64,000 nucleotides of DNA from Bradymonas sediminis (lineage in GTDB: Bacteria > Myxococcota_A > Bradymonadia > Bradymonadales > Bradymonadaceae), in NCBI RefSeq assembly GCF_003258315.1, contig NZ_CP030032.1, positions 3,846,501 to 3,910,500 of the forward strand, written 5' to 3'. Below are positions 7,150 through 16,250 of this stretch, piece after piece. Made by a program: the position numbers and the translations under genes. How positions within the stretch are numbered: the stretch's first letter is position 1; each line of letters opens with the position of its first letter. The notes beneath the pieces are model-generated. The model made no database searches. It had not been told where the DNA came from and saw nothing but the letters and a program-made list of their open reading frames with translations.

Positions 7150-7172
7150 TCGTTGTTATGTGGAGACAAAAG

Positions 7173-8396
7173 ATGAGCAGCACGCAAGGTCGACCGAAGT
7201 TGGCGCGATGCTTCGCCGCACATCTGACGCCTAACGCACCTTTGGCGGCGCTGCTCTCTGGCGCACTCCTGGCAAGCGCCCTCTTCGTCGGCGGGTGCGA
7301 CACCCCCGGCGCGGATTCAGCGTCCAGCGCTCCGGCCGAAGAGGCCACCGCGGCGCCCACCCCGGCACAACCAGCCCCAGCCCAAACAGCACAGAATCGC
7401 CCCCAGCCAGCGCTCCCCGCAGCGACGCGCCCGGCGAGCTTCGCCGATCTCGTCGCCGAAGTCCGCCCGGCGGTGGTCAATATTTACACCCGCCAGGAGA
7501 TCCGCACGCCCGGGCGATTCAACCCATTCTCGGGCTCCCGCATCGTGCCACAACGGCGCGTCGCCGAGAGCCTGGGCTCCGGCTTCATCATCGACGCCGG
7601 CGGCCAGGTCCTCACCAATTATCATGTCATCAAAGACGCCACCGAGATCGGCGTGCGCCTCTTTGACAACCGGCTATTTAAGGCCGAAGTCATCGGCACC
7701 GACCCCAAGACCGACGTCGCGCTGCTCCAGATTATCGGGGCCAAAAGCGACCTGCCGACCATCAAATTAGGGGACGCCAAAGATCTTCGCGTCGGGGATT
7801 GGGTCGTGGCGATCGGCAACCCGCTCGGCCTCACGAGCACCGTCACCGCCGGCATCGCCAGCGCCATCGGCCGCCATAACCTGCCCCTGGGCGGCGCGAT
7901 GAGCTACCAGGACTTCATCCAGACCGACGCCTCCATCAACCCCGGAAACTCCGGCGGCCCCCTGATCAACACCCAGGGCGAGGTCGTGGGGATCAACACC
8001 GCCGTGAGCGCCGAAGGCCAGGGCATCGGCTTCGCCACGCCGATCAATATGGCGGTCGAGATCTTGGAACAACTCCAGACAAACGGCCGCGTGGAGCGCA
8101 GTTGGCTGGGCATCTACGCCGACGACGTACCGCGGCGCGTGCGCGAGGAGTTGGGGCTGCCCGACGATATATCGGGCGCGCTTGTCACCAACGTGGTCGC
8201 CGGCGGCCCGGCCGAAAAGGTCGGCCTCAAGCGCGGCGATATCCTGCTGCGCATCAACTCACAGCCCATCAACGACGCCAAGCACCTCGCCTGGATGGCG
8301 AGCAACCTGGGCATTGGCAAGACGGTGGAGCTCGAGTTCTGGCATTACGACGCCATCAAACGCACCCAACTCACCCTCGGTGCGCTGCCGAATTAG
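7173..8396 (+). CDS. HtrA/DegP-family serine protease, lipoprotein with one PDZ domain
   Basis: A 407-aa envelope quality-control protease. A signal peptide ends in FVGGC with a predicted lipidated Cys42, followed by an Ala/Pro-rich tether of about 45 residues. The trypsin-like domain has the catalytic triad His151 (TNYHVIKD), Asp181 (DPKTDVAL) and Ser260 (NPGNSGGPL). A single C-terminal PDZ (about 300-400) starts at WLGIYADDVP. One PDZ domain makes it DegS-like in layout, but lipid anchoring differs from DegS. GGAGA precedes the ATG at 7173; an in-frame ATG at 7158 is less likely. It is the last gene of the trio with the 65-aa and DUF1844 proteins. Confidence 0.92.
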   Translation: MSSTQGRPKLARCFAAHLTPNAPLAALLSGALLASALFVGGCDTPGADSASSAPAEEATAAPTPAQPAPAQTAQNRPQPALPAATRPASFADLVAEVRPAVVNIYTRQEIRTPGRFNPFSGSRIVPQRRVAESLGSGFIIDAGGQVLTNYHVIKDATEIGVRLFDNRLFKAEVIGTDPKTDVALLQIIGAKSDLPTIKLGDAKDLRVGDWVVAIGNPLGLTSTVTAGIASAIGRHNLPLGGAMSYQDFIQTDASINPGNSGGPLINTQGEVVGINTAVSAEGQGIGFATPINMAVEILEQLQTNGRVERSWLGIYADDVPRRVREELGLPDDISGALVTNVVAGGPAEKVGLKRGDILLRINSQPINDAKHLAWMASNLGIGKTVELEFWHYDAIKRTQLTLGALPN

Positions 8397-8540: not shown

Positions 8541-9206
8541 ATGCCTCAGCCTCATCCTTTCGGTCCTCGCATGTTGGCTCTGCGCTTCAAGCGCTCACTG
8601 CTCGCCCTGTCGATGCTTTCGCTGGTCTTCTCCATCAGCCTCATCGCCTCGACCGCGTCAGCGACCGTGATGAAGTACGTCGGCCTTGAAGAGCTTATCG
8701 AGATCTCGGACATCATCGTCGAGGGCTCGGTCGCTGAGCAGAAGGTCTATTTTGACGAAGCCCAGGGGCGCGTCGTCACCGACACGACCTTCAAAGTTAA
8801 GCGAAACTTCATGGGCAAGGCCGACGATACGGTCACCATCCAGCAATGGAAAGGCACCCATAAGGGCATCACCAGCCAGATCCCGGGGGACCCCAAATTC
8901 GAAAAGGGCGAGTCGGTCATCGTCTTCTTGCACCGCGGCGCCGACGGCGTCGTGGCGCTGTCAGCGATGGCACAGTCGAAATTTTCGCTCTTCCCCTCCG
9001 CTCAGGGAAAACTGGTCTCGCGAAACTTCAGCGACCTGTCGATTTTGCTCGACGATGCCGCGCTTAAAAAACTCGCTGCCCCCTCGGCGATGGCACCGTC
9101 GGCTGGCCAACTCGTAAAACTCCCGAAAGAAACCCGCTCCTACGAGTCCTTCGTCGCCGAGTTGGAGTCTTTGATCGCCGGCATTAAGGGAGGCTCCAAT
9201 GATTAA
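8541..9206 (+). CDS. Secreted cysteine-free partner protein of matrixin, copy 1
   Basis: A 221-aa protein. A signal peptide with core LLALSMLSLVFSISLIAS ends at TASA, leaving a mature protein with no Cys. The mature start (ELIEISDIIVEGSV) is followed by beta-rich sequence with an F-K-V-K-R strand, a short KGxxD-type turn, a TVTIQQW strand, then PKFEKGESVIVFL, a layout like small OB-fold NTR/TIMP domains (my inference). A helical C-terminus follows (YESFVAELESLIAGI). AGGAG lies 8 bases before the ATG. The last 8 bp overlap the matrixin start, so translation is coupled. The gene at 11010 encodes a close paralog of identical length. Confidence 0.8.
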   Translation: MPQPHPFGPRMLALRFKRSLLALSMLSLVFSISLIASTASATVMKYVGLEELIEISDIIVEGSVAEQKVYFDEAQGRVVTDTTFKVKRNFMGKADDTVTIQQWKGTHKGITSQIPGDPKFEKGESVIVFLHRGADGVVALSAMAQSKFSLFPSAQGKLVSRNFSDLSILLDDAALKKLAAPSAMAPSAGQLVKLPKETRSYESFVAELESLIAGIKGGSND

Positions 9207-10791
9207 GAACTCACCCATGAATTATCTTCGCCACATCCTGGCCCTGTGCACCGTGCTCGCCTGCCTGATGGTCGCCCCCAGCGCATTTGCCTATCAATTT
9301 ATGGCCAGCGACCGCTGCCCCAACGGCGCTACCTGGTCATCAAACCGCCAGCCGCTTAATTATTATATCAACCAAAACGGCGTGAGCACGGTTCCGATGA
9401 CCAGCTTGTCGCGGATCATCCAAGACTCCTTCAACGCCTGGAGCGAGCCTTGCTGCTCGGGATTCTCGGCCAACTACCGCGGCACAACCCACCTGGGCTC
9501 GCCCAATAGCAACCGCGAGATGGTGCTCACTTTCGAGGAGAATAATTGGCCCGCCCAGATGGGCAACGTCAACGTGACCGTCGCGGTCACGCTTTTCCAG
9601 GCGAGCAACGACTGCTCCATCTATGCGGCGCCGATCCTTTATAACGCCGTTAAGTTCGACTTTTGCACCAGCGGCAACAATTGCACCGACCTTCAGAGCA
9701 TCACGACCCACGAAATCGGGCATAGCTTAGGCCTGAACCACAGCAACCACGCCGACGCCACGATGTATTACGCCTATACAGGCGGCACGAGCGCGCGCAC
9801 GCTCTCCCCAGACGACATCGCGGGGGTCTGCACACTGTACCCTGACAATAGCTGCAACTGCGCCACGGATCGCGATTGCGACAGCGGCGAGGTTTGTAAT
9901 AACGGGCAATGCGAAAAAATGCGCTGCACAAGCGACCTGATGTGCCCATACGGACAGGCATGTAACGTCGCCAGCGGCGACTGCGTGCAGCCCACTTGTG
10001 CCGCAGACTACCAATGCGTCGACGGGTTCAACTGCGAAAACAATCGCTGCGTTTCGTCGTGCCCGACCTGCCGCGAGTGCAGAACACACGCCGAATGCGG
10101 CAGCAACGCATGGTGCGCGATGCTCACGGCAGGCTCCAATGTCGGCAGCTGCATGAATTTTTGCGCTCAGGACGGCAGTTGCCCCGGCGACTCCAGATGC
10201 TTCCGCACCCCCTTCGCGTTGAGCAGCAGCGGCGCGTGCAACCCGGGCTCATGCCAGCCTGGTGAGGAATGCGTCCCCGACACCGACAATGGCTATACCT
10301 GTGTGACCAAGTGCAACACGAACGCAGACTGTGGGACCAACCAACTATGCATGGATATGGGCATGAAAGTCTGCATCGAAACCAGCCTGCTCTGCCTGAA
10401 CCCCGACGCCGCCGAAACCGGCGCGATTTGCCCCGACCAATATACCTGCATGCCGGGGAGTGGCGGCGGCACGGCGAACTCGCCGGAGCCCGTCCCGGCG
10501 ATCATCCCCGGGTCGGCGCCCCCTCCGCCCGGGACGATTCCCGACGCCGGCCCCACCCCCGATATTGGCGAAGAGAATAATTTCGGCGGTGATACCGGAG
10601 TCACGCCTGATATTGGGGGCGAGCGCGACGCTGACGATGCGCTCAATGACCCGAATCAAATCGACGCCGAATTCCATGAACTTCACGGAGGATGCGGCTG
10701 CTCCAGCACCCCACTCCAAGATGAAGTCCCCGGCAGCTTGATGCTCCTGGGCGCGTTTGGTCTCGGCATCCTGTGGAAGCGCAAGCGCTAA
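9199..10791 (+). CDS. Matrixin-type zinc metalloprotease with MYXO-CTERM anchor, copy 1
   Basis: A 530-aa secreted protease. A signal peptide ends near SAFA. The catalytic domain begins at once (YQFMASDRCPNG) and holds the zinc motif HEIGHSLGLNH (171-181) and Met-turn Met189. No propeptide or cysteine switch is visible. Residues about 215-430 are Cys-rich, disulfide-knot-like repeats (CATDRDCDSGEVCNNGQCE type), then a Pro/Gly/Asp linker. The C-terminus has GCGC, a hydrophobic helix and WKRKR, a MYXO-CTERM sorting signal for surface anchoring by a myxosortase. The start overlaps the partner gene by 8 bp, with GGGAGG six bases upstream of the ATG. Confidence 0.9.
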   Translation: MIKNSPMNYLRHILALCTVLACLMVAPSAFAYQFMASDRCPNGATWSSNRQPLNYYINQNGVSTVPMTSLSRIIQDSFNAWSEPCCSGFSANYRGTTHLGSPNSNREMVLTFEENNWPAQMGNVNVTVAVTLFQASNDCSIYAAPILYNAVKFDFCTSGNNCTDLQSITTHEIGHSLGLNHSNHADATMYYAYTGGTSARTLSPDDIAGVCTLYPDNSCNCATDRDCDSGEVCNNGQCEKMRCTSDLMCPYGQACNVASGDCVQPTCAADYQCVDGFNCENNRCVSSCPTCRECRTHAECGSNAWCAMLTAGSNVGSCMNFCAQDGSCPGDSRCFRTPFALSSSGACNPGSCQPGEECVPDTDNGYTCVTKCNTNADCGTNQLCMDMGMKVCIETSLLCLNPDAAETGAICPDQYTCMPGSGGGTANSPEPVPAIIPGSAPPPPGTIPDAGPTPDIGEENNFGGDTGVTPDIGGERDADDALNDPNQIDAEFHELHGGCGCSSTPLQDEVPGSLMLLGAFGLGILWKRKR

Positions 10792-10817
10792 CGTAGGTTC
10801 CCGCGTGAGTATACAAA

Positions 10818-10850
10818 GGCTGCCGGCATTTGCCGGCGGCCTTTTTCTTT
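10818..10850 (+). terminator. Rho-independent terminator after module copy 1
   Basis: A GC-rich hairpin with arms GGCTGCCGGCA and TGCCGGCGGCC is followed by CTTTTTCTTTT, 27 bp after the matrixin stop codon. It separates copy 1 from copy 2, so the second module should have its own promoter. Confidence 0.85.
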
Positions 10851-10953
10851 TCGCCAGCAACCTCCCCCAGGCCCGCTCGACCCCACAAAACCAGCGTGTC
10901 CTCCCATCTTATTTACAAGCCCCACCCCGAATGGCACTATACCGCCGGGACAT

Positions 10954-10976
10954 CACCCCCCTCCATTCTAATTATC
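10954..10976 (+). promoter_or_regulatory. Leader element of module copy 2, possible -10
   Basis: CACCCCCC, then TCTAATTATCTT about 43 bp before the ATG. It matches the leader before copy 1 in order and distance, while the sequence between it and the preceding terminator is not obviously conserved. A possible shared promoter or untranslated leader; evidence limited to this comparison. Confidence 0.3.
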
Positions 10977-11009
10977 TTTATTCTCCTACGGCTCTGGGCA
11001 GCAATAATC

Positions 11010-11675
11010 ATGTCATACCAGCAACCCTCTACGCTTCACTCTCCGTCTTGTCGGCCCACGCGATCCCTGGTCGCGCTGGCGATGCTCGCGCTTGTCTTCG
11101 CCATCAGCCTCGTGGCATCGACCGCGTCGGCGACCGTCATGAAATACGCAGACCTTGAAGGGCTGATCGAGATCTCAGACATCATCGTCGAAGGCTCGGT
11201 CGCCGAGCAGAAGGTCTATTTCGACGAGGCCCAGGGCCGCGTCGTCACCGACACGACTTTTAAGATTGAGCGTAAATTCCTGGGCGAGGTCGACTCAAAA
11301 GTCACCATTCAGCAATGGCAGGGCACCCACAAAGGGATCACCACCCAGATCCCGGGCGACCCCAACTTCGACAAAGGCGAGTCGGTCATCGTCTTCTTGC
11401 ACCGCGGCCCCGACGGCGTCGTCGCGCTGTCGGCCATGGCCCAGTCGAAGTTCTCGATCTTCCCGACCGCCCAGGGAAAACTGGTCTCTCGTAACTTCAG
11501 CGACCTGTCGATTTTGCTCGATGACGCCGCGCTCAAAAAACTCGTAGCGCCCGCCAAAAACGAACCGTCAGCGGGCCAGATCGTAAAACTCCCGAAGGAG
11601 ACCCGCTCCTACGAATCATTCGTCGCGGAGCTGGAATCCCTGATCGCTGGTATCAAGGGAGGAACCAATGACTAA
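11010..11675 (+). CDS. Secreted cysteine-free partner protein of matrixin, copy 2
   Basis: A 221-aa paralog of the protein at 8541. The signal peptide differs (MSYQQPSTLHSPSCRPTRSL) but the mature part is nearly the same from ATVMKYADLEGLIEISDIIV to YESFVAELESLIAGIKGG. The mature protein again has no Cys. The ATG at 11010 gives exactly the same length as copy 1; an upstream in-frame extension to 10830 is rejected because it runs through the terminator of copy 1. Only a weak GGGCAG precedes the ATG. The final 8 bp overlap the next matrixin gene, as in copy 1. Confidence 0.8.
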   Translation: MSYQQPSTLHSPSCRPTRSLVALAMLALVFAISLVASTASATVMKYADLEGLIEISDIIVEGSVAEQKVYFDEAQGRVVTDTTFKIERKFLGEVDSKVTIQQWQGTHKGITTQIPGDPNFDKGESVIVFLHRGPDGVVALSAMAQSKFSIFPTAQGKLVSRNFSDLSILLDDAALKKLVAPAKNEPSAGQIVKLPKETRSYESFVAELESLIAGIKGGTND

Positions 11676-13488
11676 GAAGTCCACGCCCATGAATTATCTT
11701 CGCCACACCCTCGCCCTTTGCACCGTGCTCGCCGGCCTGATGGTCGCCCCCAGCGCGTTTAGCTACCAATTTATCAGCGCCGACCGCTGCCCCAACGGCG
11801 TCACCTGGAGCTCAAGCCGCCAGCCGCTCGATTATTATATCAATCGCAACGGCTCGAGCACCGTGCCGATGAACACGGTGACGCGGATCTTCGAGGACTC
11901 CTTCGACGCCTGGAGCGAGCCCTGCTGCTCGAGCTTCACCACCAATTACCGCGGAACGACGTCTCTGACGGCGCTCAATAGCGACGATGAAGTTGTCCTG
12001 TCCTTCCAGGAGAATAACTGGCCAACCCAGATGGGCAACGTCAACCAGACCATCGCGGTCACCCTCTTTCAGGGCTACTCGAATTGCACCATCTATTCGG
12101 CGCCGATTCTATTTAACGCGGTCGGTTTCGACTTCTGCTCCAGCGGCAGCGGCTGCACCGACCTGCAGAGCATCGCGACCCACGAGATCGGCCATAACTT
12201 AGGCCTGGACCACAGCAACCACTCCGACGCCACGATGTTTTACGCCTATAGCGGCGGCACCAGCGCGCGCACGCTCTCCGACGACGACGTCGCCGGGGTC
12301 TGCGCGCTGTATCCCGACACCTGCGCGTGCACTCGCGATAGCCAATGCAGCACCGGCCAGGTCTGCAATAACGGGCAATGCGAAAAAGCGCCCTGCACAA
12401 GTGACGCGATGTGCCCGGGCGGAAAGACCTGCGAGCGCTCCAGCGGCGAGTGCGTGGTGCCCACCTGTAGCACCGACAACGACTGCGCCAGCGGCTATAT
12501 ATGCGACGCCACCAACCACTGCGTCACCGAGTGTGAGATCTGCCGCGAGTGCACCTCTCAGGCCGACTGCGGCGGCGGCGGCGCGTATTGCGCGGCGGTC
12601 GACGAAGGCTCCGATGTCGGCAAATGCCTGGCGAGTTGTGGCCCCGACGGTAGCTGCCCCGGCGACTCCGAATGCTTCCTGGTGCCCAACTCCCCCGCCA
12701 GCAGCGGCTCCTGCGGCTCGGGCGTTTGTGAGTCCGGCGAAGAATGCGTCGGCGACGGCAACAACGGAACCATCTGCGTGACCATGTGTAGCTCGGACGG
12801 GGACTGCGGCAGCGACCAGCGCTGCATGGACCTGGGCATCAACGTCTGTGTCGACACCTACCAGCTCTGCCTGAACCCGGACGCCGGCACCACCGGCACC
12901 ATCTGCCCCGACGGCTATGAGTGCCACAGCGACTCCGGCGGCGGCTCCAACCCCGGCGCAGCCTGCAACGGATTGGGCAATTATTGCTCGACCAGCTCTG
13001 ACAATTGCACCACCGACAACGATGTCTGCGTCGGCACCTCGGCCACCGAGGGCTATTGCTCCTGCGTGTGCGAGCGCGACTCCGATTGCGGCGACGGGGC
13101 GACCTGCGAGACGCTTCAGAGCGGCACAAAGGCCTGCATTATCAACGACGAGGAGCCCACCGACCCATGTGACGGCGTAACCTGCCCCTCGGAACAGACC
13201 TGCAGCGGCGGAGTCTGCGTGGGCGGCGGAACCAACCCAAATGATCCCGACGCGGGCACCTCCCCCGACGTCGGCGTTGATGTGGGAATTACCCCCGATA
13301 TCGGCGGCGACAGCGACGCTGGCGATGAAGTCATCGACCAGAAGCAAGAGGAGGAACAGAATTATGCCAGCGACGACTCTGACTCCGGATGCGGCTGCTC
13401 GAGCACCCCGCTCCAGGATGACGTCCCCGGCAGCTTGATGCTGCTGGGCGCGTTTGGCCTCGGCATCCTGTGGAGGCGAAAGCGCTAA
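11668..13488 (+). CDS. Matrixin-type zinc metalloprotease with MYXO-CTERM anchor, copy 2
   Basis: A 606-aa paralog of the protease at 9199. It has a signal peptide ending SAFS, a catalytic domain with HEIGHNLGLDH (172-182) and Met-turn Met190, and no visible propeptide. Its Cys-rich stalk is longer than in copy 1: where copy 1 has a Pro-rich linker, this copy carries about 95 more residues of Cys-rich repeats (from CNGLGNYC to CSGGVCVGG). The C-terminal GCGC-helix-WRRKR tail is nearly identical. It overlaps its partner gene by 8 bp and is followed by a strong terminator. Confidence 0.9.
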   Translation: MTKKSTPMNYLRHTLALCTVLAGLMVAPSAFSYQFISADRCPNGVTWSSSRQPLDYYINRNGSSTVPMNTVTRIFEDSFDAWSEPCCSSFTTNYRGTTSLTALNSDDEVVLSFQENNWPTQMGNVNQTIAVTLFQGYSNCTIYSAPILFNAVGFDFCSSGSGCTDLQSIATHEIGHNLGLDHSNHSDATMFYAYSGGTSARTLSDDDVAGVCALYPDTCACTRDSQCSTGQVCNNGQCEKAPCTSDAMCPGGKTCERSSGECVVPTCSTDNDCASGYICDATNHCVTECEICRECTSQADCGGGGAYCAAVDEGSDVGKCLASCGPDGSCPGDSECFLVPNSPASSGSCGSGVCESGEECVGDGNNGTICVTMCSSDGDCGSDQRCMDLGINVCVDTYQLCLNPDAGTTGTICPDGYECHSDSGGGSNPGAACNGLGNYCSTSSDNCTTDNDVCVGTSATEGYCSCVCERDSDCGDGATCETLQSGTKACIINDEEPTDPCDGVTCPSEQTCSGGVCVGGGTNPNDPDAGTSPDVGVDVGITPDIGGDSDAGDEVIDQKQEEEQNYASDDSDSGCGCSSTPLQDDVPGSLMLLGAFGLGILWRRKR

Positions 13489-13561: not shown

Positions 13562-16174
13562 TCAGGCCTTCTCAACCCGATTAAACGTCAGCCCCTTTCC
13601 ATCTTCGGCGACGTCCACCTTGATCTCGTCGCCCTCGCCGAAGCGCCCCTCCAGAATCTCGGTCGACAGCGGGTCGTGGATGAATTTGCCGAAGGCGCGC
13701 TTGAGCGGGCGCGCGCCGTACTCCGGCTCGTAGCCCTCTTCGGCCAAAAAGTCGCGGGCGGCATCGCTCAGGCCGATCAAGATCTTTTGCTGGCCCAACA
13801 ACTTTCGCAGCCCGCGCTCCTGGATGTCGACGATGAGGCGAATCGACTCGCAGCTCAACGCCTGGAAGGTGATCGGGGCGTCGAGGCGGTTCAAGAACTC
13901 CGGCTTGAAATGATCCTTGAGAATCTCGCCGACGGCGTCGTTGAGCTCCTCCTGCTCGACCTTTCCGGTCAGGTCCATGATCTCGCGGCTGCCGACGTTC
14001 GAGGTCAAGATGATCAGCGTATTTGAGAAGTCGACCATGCGGCCCTGACTGTCGCTCAGGCGCCCCTCGTCCATGACCTGCAAGAGGATATTAAAGACGT
14101 CGGGGTGCGCTTTCTCAGCCTCGTCAAAGAGCACCACCGAATAGGGCTTCAGGCGCACGGCCTCGGTCAAAATACCGCCCGACTGGCTGCCCACATACCC
14201 GCGCGCCGAGCCGATGAGCGTGTTGACCTTCGACTGCTCCATATATTCGCTCATATCGATGCGAACCAGCGAGTCCTCGCTGTCGAAGAGGAACTCGCTG
14301 AGCGCCTTGGCCAGCTCGGTTTTCCCCACGCCGGTGGGGCCGACGAACATGAAGTTACCGATCGGGCGCCCCGCCGGTTTAAGCCCCGCGCGTGAGCGCC
14401 AGATAGCCTTGCAGATCGCCTCGATCGCGTGGTCCTGCCCGACGACCCGCTGACGCAGGCGATTGGGCATATTGAGCAACTTCTCACGCTCCGACTCCAA
14501 CATGCGCGAGGTCGGAATGCCGGTCCAGCTCGCGATGACCGCGGCGATGTCGGTCTCATCGACATAGTCTTTGAGCAGACGCTCATCTGCGTGGATCTCG
14601 TCGAGCTTCGCCTCGGCCTGGGCGATCTCCTTCTGGATGCGCGGGAGCACGCTATACTTAAGCTCGGCCGCGCGCCCCAACTCGCCCGCCCGCTGGGCCT
14701 CGAGGATCTCTTTCTCGCTCGTCTCAAGCGCCTCTTTATGCTCGGTCAACTCGTCGAGCGCGCCCTTCTCAAGCTCCCACCGCACGCGCAGGCGCGCGGC
14801 TTCTTCTTCCTGACTCTCAATCTCATTCTCCAGCCCATCGCGCGCCTCCACCGTCTCGGCGTCGGTCGCCTCGGCCAGCGACTCCCGCTCGACCTGAAGC
14901 TGCAAGATGCTGCGCTCGATGGCGTCGAGCTTCGCCGGCTTCGAGTCGATCTCGAGGCGCAAGCGGCTGCACGCCTCATCGATGGCGTCGATGGCCTTGT
15001 CCGGCAGCGCCCGGTCGCTCACGTAGCGGTCGGTGCCCTCGGCCGCCGCGATGAGCGCCTGGTCGCGGATCTGCACGCCGTGATGAATCTCGTATTGCTG
15101 CTTGATGCCGCGCAAAATCGACACGCACTCACCGATATCGACCTCGTCGACCAAGATCGACTGGAAGCGCCGCTCAAGCGCGGCGTCTTCCTCGATATAC
15201 TCGCGATACTCGTCGATGGTCGTGGTGCCCATGATGCTGATCTCACCGCGGGCCATCGCCGGCTTGAGCAGGTTCACCGCGCCGCCACTGCCCTCGCCCC
15301 CTGCACCCACGATCTGCTGGAGCTCGTCGATAAATAGAATAATATCGCCCTTGCTCTGCACGACCTCGTTGATGACCGCCTTCATGCGCTCCTCAAATTG
15401 ACCGCGAAGGCTCGTCCCGGCGACCAGCGCCCCGACGTCCAGGCTCATGATGCGCTTGCCCTGCAGGCCCGCGGGCACATCGCCGGCGACCACGCGCTGG
15501 GCCAACCCCTCGACGATGGCGGTCTTACCGACGCCGGGCTCACCGATGAGCACCGGGTTATTCTTGGTGCGCCGACACAAGACCTGCATCAACCGACGCA
15601 TCTCCCCGGAGCGCCCGATGACCGGGTCTAGCTCCCCGCGGCGCGCCCGCTCGGTGAGGTCCTCGGCGAATTTACCAAGGATCTCAGACACTTCGCCCTC
15701 GGCCTGCGCGACCTTTTTACCGCTGCGCCCCTCGGCCAGGGCGTCGCGCAACTTGTCGGCGCTCGCCCCGGTCGCGCGCAATTCGCGCCCGGTGTAGCTC
15801 TTGCGCTCGCGCGCAAATGCCAGCAGCAAATGCTCGGTGCTCACAAATTTATCGTCGAGCTTCTTGGCCTCTTCGGCCGCCACGTCGAGGGCCGAGAGCA
15901 GTTGCTTGTCGACAAAAACCTGGGCCTGACCGCGCTTATAATTGCGCGGCATCGTCTCTAACTCCGCAATGAGCCCGCGCCCCAGCGCGTTGGTATCGGC
16001 CCCCAGCTTCTTGAGCACCGTCTCCACCACGCTGTCGGACTGCTCGAGCATCGCCAGCATCGTGTGCTCGATGCCGACGTGACGGTGCTCAAGGTCGGTG
16101 GCCAGCTCCTGCGCCCGCGCCATCGCCTTGCGGGCCTTGCGCGTGAATTGGGACAAATCAAATTTGGTCGGCAT
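13562..16174 (-). CDS. clpB: ATP-dependent disaggregase ClpB
   Basis: A 870-aa AAA+ chaperone that solubilises protein aggregates together with the DnaK system. An N-terminal Clp repeat domain is followed by NBD1 with Walker A GEPGVGKT (about 211-218) and Walker B ILFIDEL, a coiled-coil middle domain (about 400-520), NBD2 with GPTGVGKTE and [12 protein letters not shown], and the D2-small domain with [10 protein letters not shown]. Length is normal for the family. I chose the ATG at 16174 ([10 protein letters not shown]); a GTG three codons upstream (16183) is also possible. The upstream gene on the same strand is a pseudokinase 76 bp away. No CIRCE element was seen. Confidence 0.95.
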
Positions 16175-16250
16175 AATATTCACTCATTTTATCAAAAGAA
16201 TTTGGCGCTCAATTCATCAACTCATCAACCAATCATCGCATCAAAATATT

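Follow-up and report, generated by a model that had tools for sequence, protein, structure and literature searches.

Why should a secreted bacterial protease be encoded together with a small secreted protein that contains no cysteine, and what might this companion do? The question is raised by a 64,000-nucleotide stretch of the Bradymonas sediminis genome (hereafter the window), in which we found two tandem copies of a two-gene module, each consisting of a gene for a secreted 221-aa partner followed by one for a MYXO-CTERM matrixin. A preliminary description of this DNA had reported the duplication, the size of the partner and an 8-bp overlap with the matrixin gene, and these features are borne out by the sequence and by matches to Pfam and TIGR03901 models (Table 1). 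The motifs that it named in the partner, i.e., DIIVEG, FKV/FKI, TVTIQQW and GESVIVFL, were all found, and the mature forms of both window copies are devoid of cysteine, as it had stated.

Organization and divergence of the module

Both matrixins of the window contain the HExxHxxGxxH motif and exceed the Pfam Peptidase_M10 cut-off of 24 bits, with 57.4 bits for matrixin 1 (residues 49 to 214) and 59.6 bits for matrixin 2. Their MYXO-CTERM signals score 22 and 28.3 bits, respectively, against a TIGR03901 cut-off of 20. Sequence searches identified karilysin as the closest solved relative (phmmer E value of 1e-7 with matrixin 1). Matrixin 1, whose signal peptide ends near residue 31, aligns from residue 43 onward to karilysin catalytic residues 5 to 162, and by this alignment an MMP-type N-terminal prodomain with a cysteine switch is absent from it. 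Such a prodomain is typical of MMPs and is not universal among bacterial matrixins.

Because a terminator-like hairpin separates the two copies, each module is probably a two-gene unit of its own. Directly upstream of the module lies a gene for a DegP/HtrA-like serine protease (7158-8396, + strand), and a gene for a ClpB-like AAA+ chaperone (13562-16183, - strand) is convergent to it. In a related genome (L032), too, the partner is preceded by a DegP/HtrA-like gene, and thus the neighbourhood is partly conserved.

Table 1 Features of the two modules, in window coordinates
Feature	Position	Strand	Remarks
Partner copy 1 gene	8541-9206	+	221 codons; stop codon 9204-9206
Partner copy 1, N-terminal region with signal peptide	8541-8663	+	Ends A39-S40-A41; hydrophobic segment and A-x-A site
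Partner copy 1, mature NTR/TIMP-fold domain (predicted)	8664-9206	+	Thr42 is the predicted N-terminus
Start/stop overlap, module 1	9199-9206	+	8 bp, ATGATTAA
Matrixin copy 1	9199-10791	+	530 aa: signal peptide, catalytic domain, Cys-rich region, MYXO-CTERM
Zinc-binding motif HEIGHSLGLNH, matrixin 1	9709-9741	+	Motif at residue 171; Met-turn candidate M189
MYXO-CTERM sorting signal, matrixin 1	10687-10770	+	Residues 497-524, TIGR03901 match
Terminator-like hairpin between modules	10815-10844	+	13-pair stem and T-rich tail; consensus match only
Partner copy 2 gene	11010-11675	+	221 codons
Partner copy 2, N-terminal region with signal peptide	11010-11132	+	Basis as for copy 1
Partner copy 2, mature NTR/TIMP-fold domain (predicted)	11133-11675	+	Mature part 86% identical to copy 1
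Start/stop overlap, module 2	11668-11675	+	8 bp, ATGACTAA
Matrixin copy 2	11668-13488	+	606 aa; TIGR03901 match at residues 572-606
Zinc-binding motif HEIGHNLGLDH, matrixin 2	12181-12213	+	Motif at residue 172; Met-turn candidate M190

The two partner copies are 80% identical. Comparison of copy 1 with copy 2 gave a dN of 0.073 and a dS of 0.66 for the mature partner (dN/dS of about 0.11), 0.18 and 0.50 for the matrixin catalytic domain (dN/dS of 0.36), and 0.37 and 0.60 for the matrixin Cys-rich region. The mature partner is thus under strong purifying selection and is the most constrained part of the module, a short C-terminal tail excepted. Between the two matrixins, identity amounts to 54% in the Cys-rich region, 73% in the catalytic domain and 89% in the C-terminal tail; the faster divergence of the Cys-rich region after duplication suggests new substrate or surface contacts. 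Partner and matrixin types went together in all 36 comparisons made in nine two-copy genomes, a pattern in the sequences that would fit co-divergence or simple vertical descent. Distances among partners correlate with those among matrixins (Mantel r of 0.54), but we do not take this as proof of contact, because common descent would produce the same result.

Pairing of partner and matrixin across the phylum

Of 285 genomes drawn from across the phylum, 214 have a match to a profile of the partner family. The partner loci collected in relatives and in the phylum-wide sample were reduced to 123 distinct sequences; the 124 members referred to below also include L006, a re-sampled partial view of window copy 2 that was dropped from the 123. 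Six loci were ended by contig ends, leaving 117 with enough flank. At 113 of these 117 distinct loci the partner has an adjacent matrixin on the same strand, a rate that may be lower for remote partners, as the sample favours well-matching sequences. The matrixin is downstream at 102 loci, upstream at 6 (L127, L130 to L133 and L138) and fused to the partner at 4, and in one case (L134) the partner abuts a large ORF that ends in a matrixin motif. Four partners (L129, L135, L137 and L170) have no matrixin nearby. The survey of other genomes proposed in the preliminary description has thus been carried out, and it did not find the pairing lacking in relatives.

With six or seven matrixins in its 5.05 Mb, the B. 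sediminis genome offers a chance of about 1% that one lies within 4 kb of a random position. The pairing is therefore far beyond chance, and the phylum survey led us to reject a chance neighbourhood. A third, diverged partner (26% identical) is found elsewhere in the same genome, again directly upstream of a matrixin (L003). Overlaps are seen in 71 of the 96 partner-first pairs for which a plausible start codon was available, the starts being picked by a simple rule; the overlap measures exactly 4 nt in 51 pairs and 1 nt in 14. Given the diverged pair and the generality of the overlaps, a mis-called overlap or a merely local duplication was also rejected.

In-frame fusions of matrixin and partner occur in four genomes (L123, L124, L125 and L128, in G022, G024, G025 and G026). 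They comprise, in this order, the matrixin, a MYXO-CTERM-like segment with arginines, a hydrophobic segment ending in an A-x-A-type site, and the NTR domain. That site precedes the NTR domain, and thus even fused partners retain a signal peptidase site.

In the reverse survey, 18 of the 29 top-scoring matrixins of the phylum sample adjoin a partner, 17 of them within 1.5 kb and the other slightly farther away (G026, at L131), and about 40% have none within 1.5 kb. The partner is tied to matrixins, yet not every matrixin has a partner. Altogether, the genetic coupling is strongly supported, and the pairing is real and old. A broad alignment of the family contained no segment of sufficient conservation for a search for related loci, and a narrower one returned nine loci only, several of them from delta-proteobacterial or Myxococcales-like MAGs; a Lujinxingiaceae MAG was among the nearest records by similarity, which points to Myxococcota as the phylum of the window. 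Plasmid and phage collections queried with one family member yielded no match.

Predicted fold and mature N-terminus of the partner

The preliminary description had likened the partner to the NTR OB fold of TIMPs. We predicted the structure of partner copy 1 with AlphaFold2 from an 11-sequence alignment, obtaining a mean pLDDT of 81, with most of the core above 90 and a low-confidence helix at residues 17 to 35. With this model, agrin NtA, TIMP-2, the PCOLCE NTR domain and TIMP-1 ranked first in Foldseek (best E value of 3.8e-4), and VIA-align placed the inhibitory N-domain of TIMP-3 first (Z of 11.6, rmsd of 2.5, 117 residues aligned). A second AlphaFold model, that of the mature form of L080, a partner 28% identical to copy 1, had TIMP-2 as its first Foldseek match (E value of 6.9e-5), and NtA (Z of 11.0) followed by TIMP-3 (Z of 10.6) in VIA-align. 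Z values against TIMPs ranged from 8.1 to 11.6 for copy 1 and from 8.4 to 10.6 for L080. The two models, which rest on related alignments and are not fully independent, thus both have TIMP-1, -2 or -3, agrin NtA and the PCOLCE NTR domain as top matches, and no confident fold other than OB emerged. These predictions strongly support a netrin-like (NTR) OB fold for the partner, as it is found in TIMPs and agrin NtA.

The likeness is much fainter in sequence. No Pfam TIMP or NTR profile matched partner copy 1 or the members of the family alignment, PDB sequence searches with the family returned nothing meaningful, and alignment of the family profile with TIMP-1 alone by hhalign was weak (E value of 0.011, probability of 4%). 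Among eukaryotic NTR families, agrin NtA alone gave a hint in Pfam sequence searches, with matches below the cut-off in two or three members (best E value of 5.7e-4). Ninety-nine of the 124 members have no cysteine at all, and Cys1-x-Cys3 and the conserved TIMP disulfides are absent. Without TIMP cysteines or a TIMP profile match, membership of the TIMP family by sequence was rejected. Matches to Pfam DUF4131 below its cut-off overlap the signal peptide and were not accepted as evidence. As the partner fails to reach the cut-off of any Pfam or NCBIfam model, this widespread family is currently unnamed in both collections.

In TIMPs, residue 1 chelates the zinc of the protease through its free amino group and its carbonyl, and the S1' pocket receives residue 2, a Thr or Ser. 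The corresponding end of the partner is conserved: at the A-x-A site of the 124 members, Ala occupies position -3 in 108 and position -1 in 116. The residue that follows is Thr in 88, Ala in 18 and Ser in 13 (119 of 124), and the second mature residue is T, V, I or S in 118. In the predicted model of copy 1, residue 42, immediately after the predicted cleavage site, superposes on TIMP residue 1 in VIA-align, and residues 2 and 3 of mature L080 align to TIMP residues 2 and 3 in its predicted model. The numbering of the mature partner is therefore in register with that of TIMPs in both models, although the register at residue 1 may partly follow from where the NTR domain begins. The models thus give the partners a predicted free end placed as in TIMPs, minus the cysteines.

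Candidate roles of the partner

On balance, we consider it most likely that the partner is a cognate, co-translated NTR OB-fold protein that would reversibly inhibit its secreted, surface-sorted matrixin. We infer binding, zinc chelation and inhibition, as well as the place and timing of action, as follows. Signal peptidase would cleave the partner between A41 and Thr42, and the freed amino end with the first residues (Thr-Val or Thr-Met/Val) would enter the active-site cleft of the matrixin. There the N-terminus would act as a chelator of the catalytic zinc in the manner of TIMP Cys1, and the matrixin would be kept silent in the periplasm until its arrival at the surface. The partner would most probably work like a TIMP without being one by sequence.

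The architecture of the proteases is consistent with such a role. The distance from the partner stop codon to HExxH has a median of 169 codons in 101 downstream pairs, which leaves no space for an MMP-type prodomain, because a prodomain of about 80 aa, a signal peptide and the roughly 120 residues that precede HExxH in MMP catalytic domains would take up more. A partner that supplies latency in trans would suit prodomain-less matrixins. A missing prodomain alone does not require a partner, as L009, a MYXO-CTERM-like matrixin near 251 kb in the same genome, has neither a prodomain nor a partner within its 1.5-kb flank. In favour of inhibition we count the pairing in its three arrangements, the overlaps, the two fold models with their N-terminal register, the small residues after A-x-A, the lack of prodomain room, the low dN/dS and the sub-threshold NtA matches. 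We count against it the four partners without a nearby matrixin, the top-scoring matrixins without a partner, L009 in the same genome, the weak profile alignment with TIMP-1 and the chance that the register partly follows from the start of the NTR domain.

Known systems resemble the module in part. Animal TIMPs have the NTR/OB fold predicted for the partner, whose predicted mature N-terminus is placed at TIMP residue 1 and followed by a small residue at position 2, and both are partners of matrixins, but the bacterial protein lacks the Cys1-x-Cys3 core and a Pfam TIMP match and is gene-coupled to one protease. Agrin NtA and the PCOLCE NTR domain have the fold predicted for the partner, but NtA binds laminin within a mosaic protein and has no protease partner in cis. 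Potempins are shorter lipoproteins, and PotA has an OB fold. In Tannerella forsythia these inhibitors are encoded just upstream of the KLIKK proteases (PMC7296668). The potempin A-karilysin pair is thus similar in that an inhibitor gene directly precedes that of a bacterial protease, and karilysin is the solved protease nearest in sequence to the window matrixin; karilysin differs by its C-terminal KLIKK/T9SS signal, where the window matrixins carry MYXO-CTERM. The partners are not potempin-type lipoproteins, as they have a conserved signal peptidase I-type A-x-A site, and the window copies have no lipobox cysteine. The list of the 50 best fold matches does not contain potempin A, which still leaves room for a likeness between the two.

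APRin, the inhibitor of the Pseudomonas alkaline protease, is likewise an endogenous bacterial inhibitor of a metzincin, but its fold is a small beta-barrel and not NTR, and its target is a serralysin, not a matrixin. Its N-terminal amine coordinates the metzincin zinc (cited in PMC8235301). The Mtz-Tim pair of Listeria monocytogenes likewise consists of adjacent genes, for a secreted metzincin and a secreted TIMP-like lipoprotein that is reported to be cleaved by the protease; its authors were aware of no earlier bacterial TIMP-like protein (PMC8235301). By its published description, Tim differs from the present partner in being a lipoprotein, encoded after the protease and phage-linked, with a likeness to TIMP drawn from Phyre2 only (PMC8235301). 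The claim that the module is a new bacterial protease-control pair therefore stands in part: the Listeria pair (PMC8235301) and the Tannerella inhibitor-protease genes (PMC7296668) preceded it, and we found no paper on the present partner family in the literature searched, which largely comprised papers outside subscription.

A broader proposal, which we make tentatively, is that Myxococcota may possess a prokaryotic equivalent of the animal MMP-TIMP system. In it, a family of cysteine-free inhibitors with the NTR fold, spread over the phylum, would block its co-encoded matrixin by TIMP-type N-terminal zinc chelation, and this family may be kin to the stock that gave rise to eukaryotic NTR inhibitors.

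Three other roles were weighed. The partner could be a trans-acting prodomain or secretion chaperone that binds the matrixin during or after export, aids its periplasmic folding and accompanies it as far as the outer membrane, any inhibition being secondary. The partner-first order with translational coupling, the matrixin without room for a prodomain in cis, the stronger conservation of the partner than of the protease domain between the window copies and the 1:1 dosage that fusions yield would all suit this role. We nevertheless regard it as unlikely, as NTR is not a known chaperone fold, the matrixin-first order is also found, and both the N-terminal register and the small residues after A-x-A are left unexplained.

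It is more doubtful still that the partner is a substrate or effector, cleaved or released by the matrixin, after which the NTR domain would target the envelope or the surroundings. NTR folds do serve without protease inhibition, as in complement C345C and in agrin NtA, which shows that the fold can be a binding module; this also counts against inhibition. So does the Listeria precedent, a TIMP-like protein reported as cleaved by its own metzincin and not as an inhibitor (PMC8235301). However, the A-x-A site of the partner is of the signal peptidase I type, and the window copies offer no lipobox cysteine from which to be released; the in-frame fusions and tight conservation suit a direct protease-partner complex at least equally. 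That the two proteins share operon and location only and never touch, the NTR domain binding lipid, glycan or peptide ligands on its own, would accommodate the unpaired matrixins and the few unpaired partners but is very improbable, as the pairing outlasts changes of order, fusion and phylum-scale divergence, and the types go together in the two-copy genomes, which shared descent explains in part.

Returning to inhibition as the preferred reading, control of MMPs by TIMPs is usually taught as an animal invention. A co-encoded pair across a phylum of soil and marine bacteria suggests that bacteria own a version of the protease-inhibitor pair that governs tissue remodelling in animals. If this is true, the origin of the pair could be tested with the help of a large, gene-coupled family from bacteria that combines the TIMP fold with the TIMP register, and the same family would provide small disulfide-free scaffolds for studies of metalloprotease inhibition. 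It would further reveal the way in which predatory and social Myxococcota keep their surface proteases inactive up to arrival at the surface.
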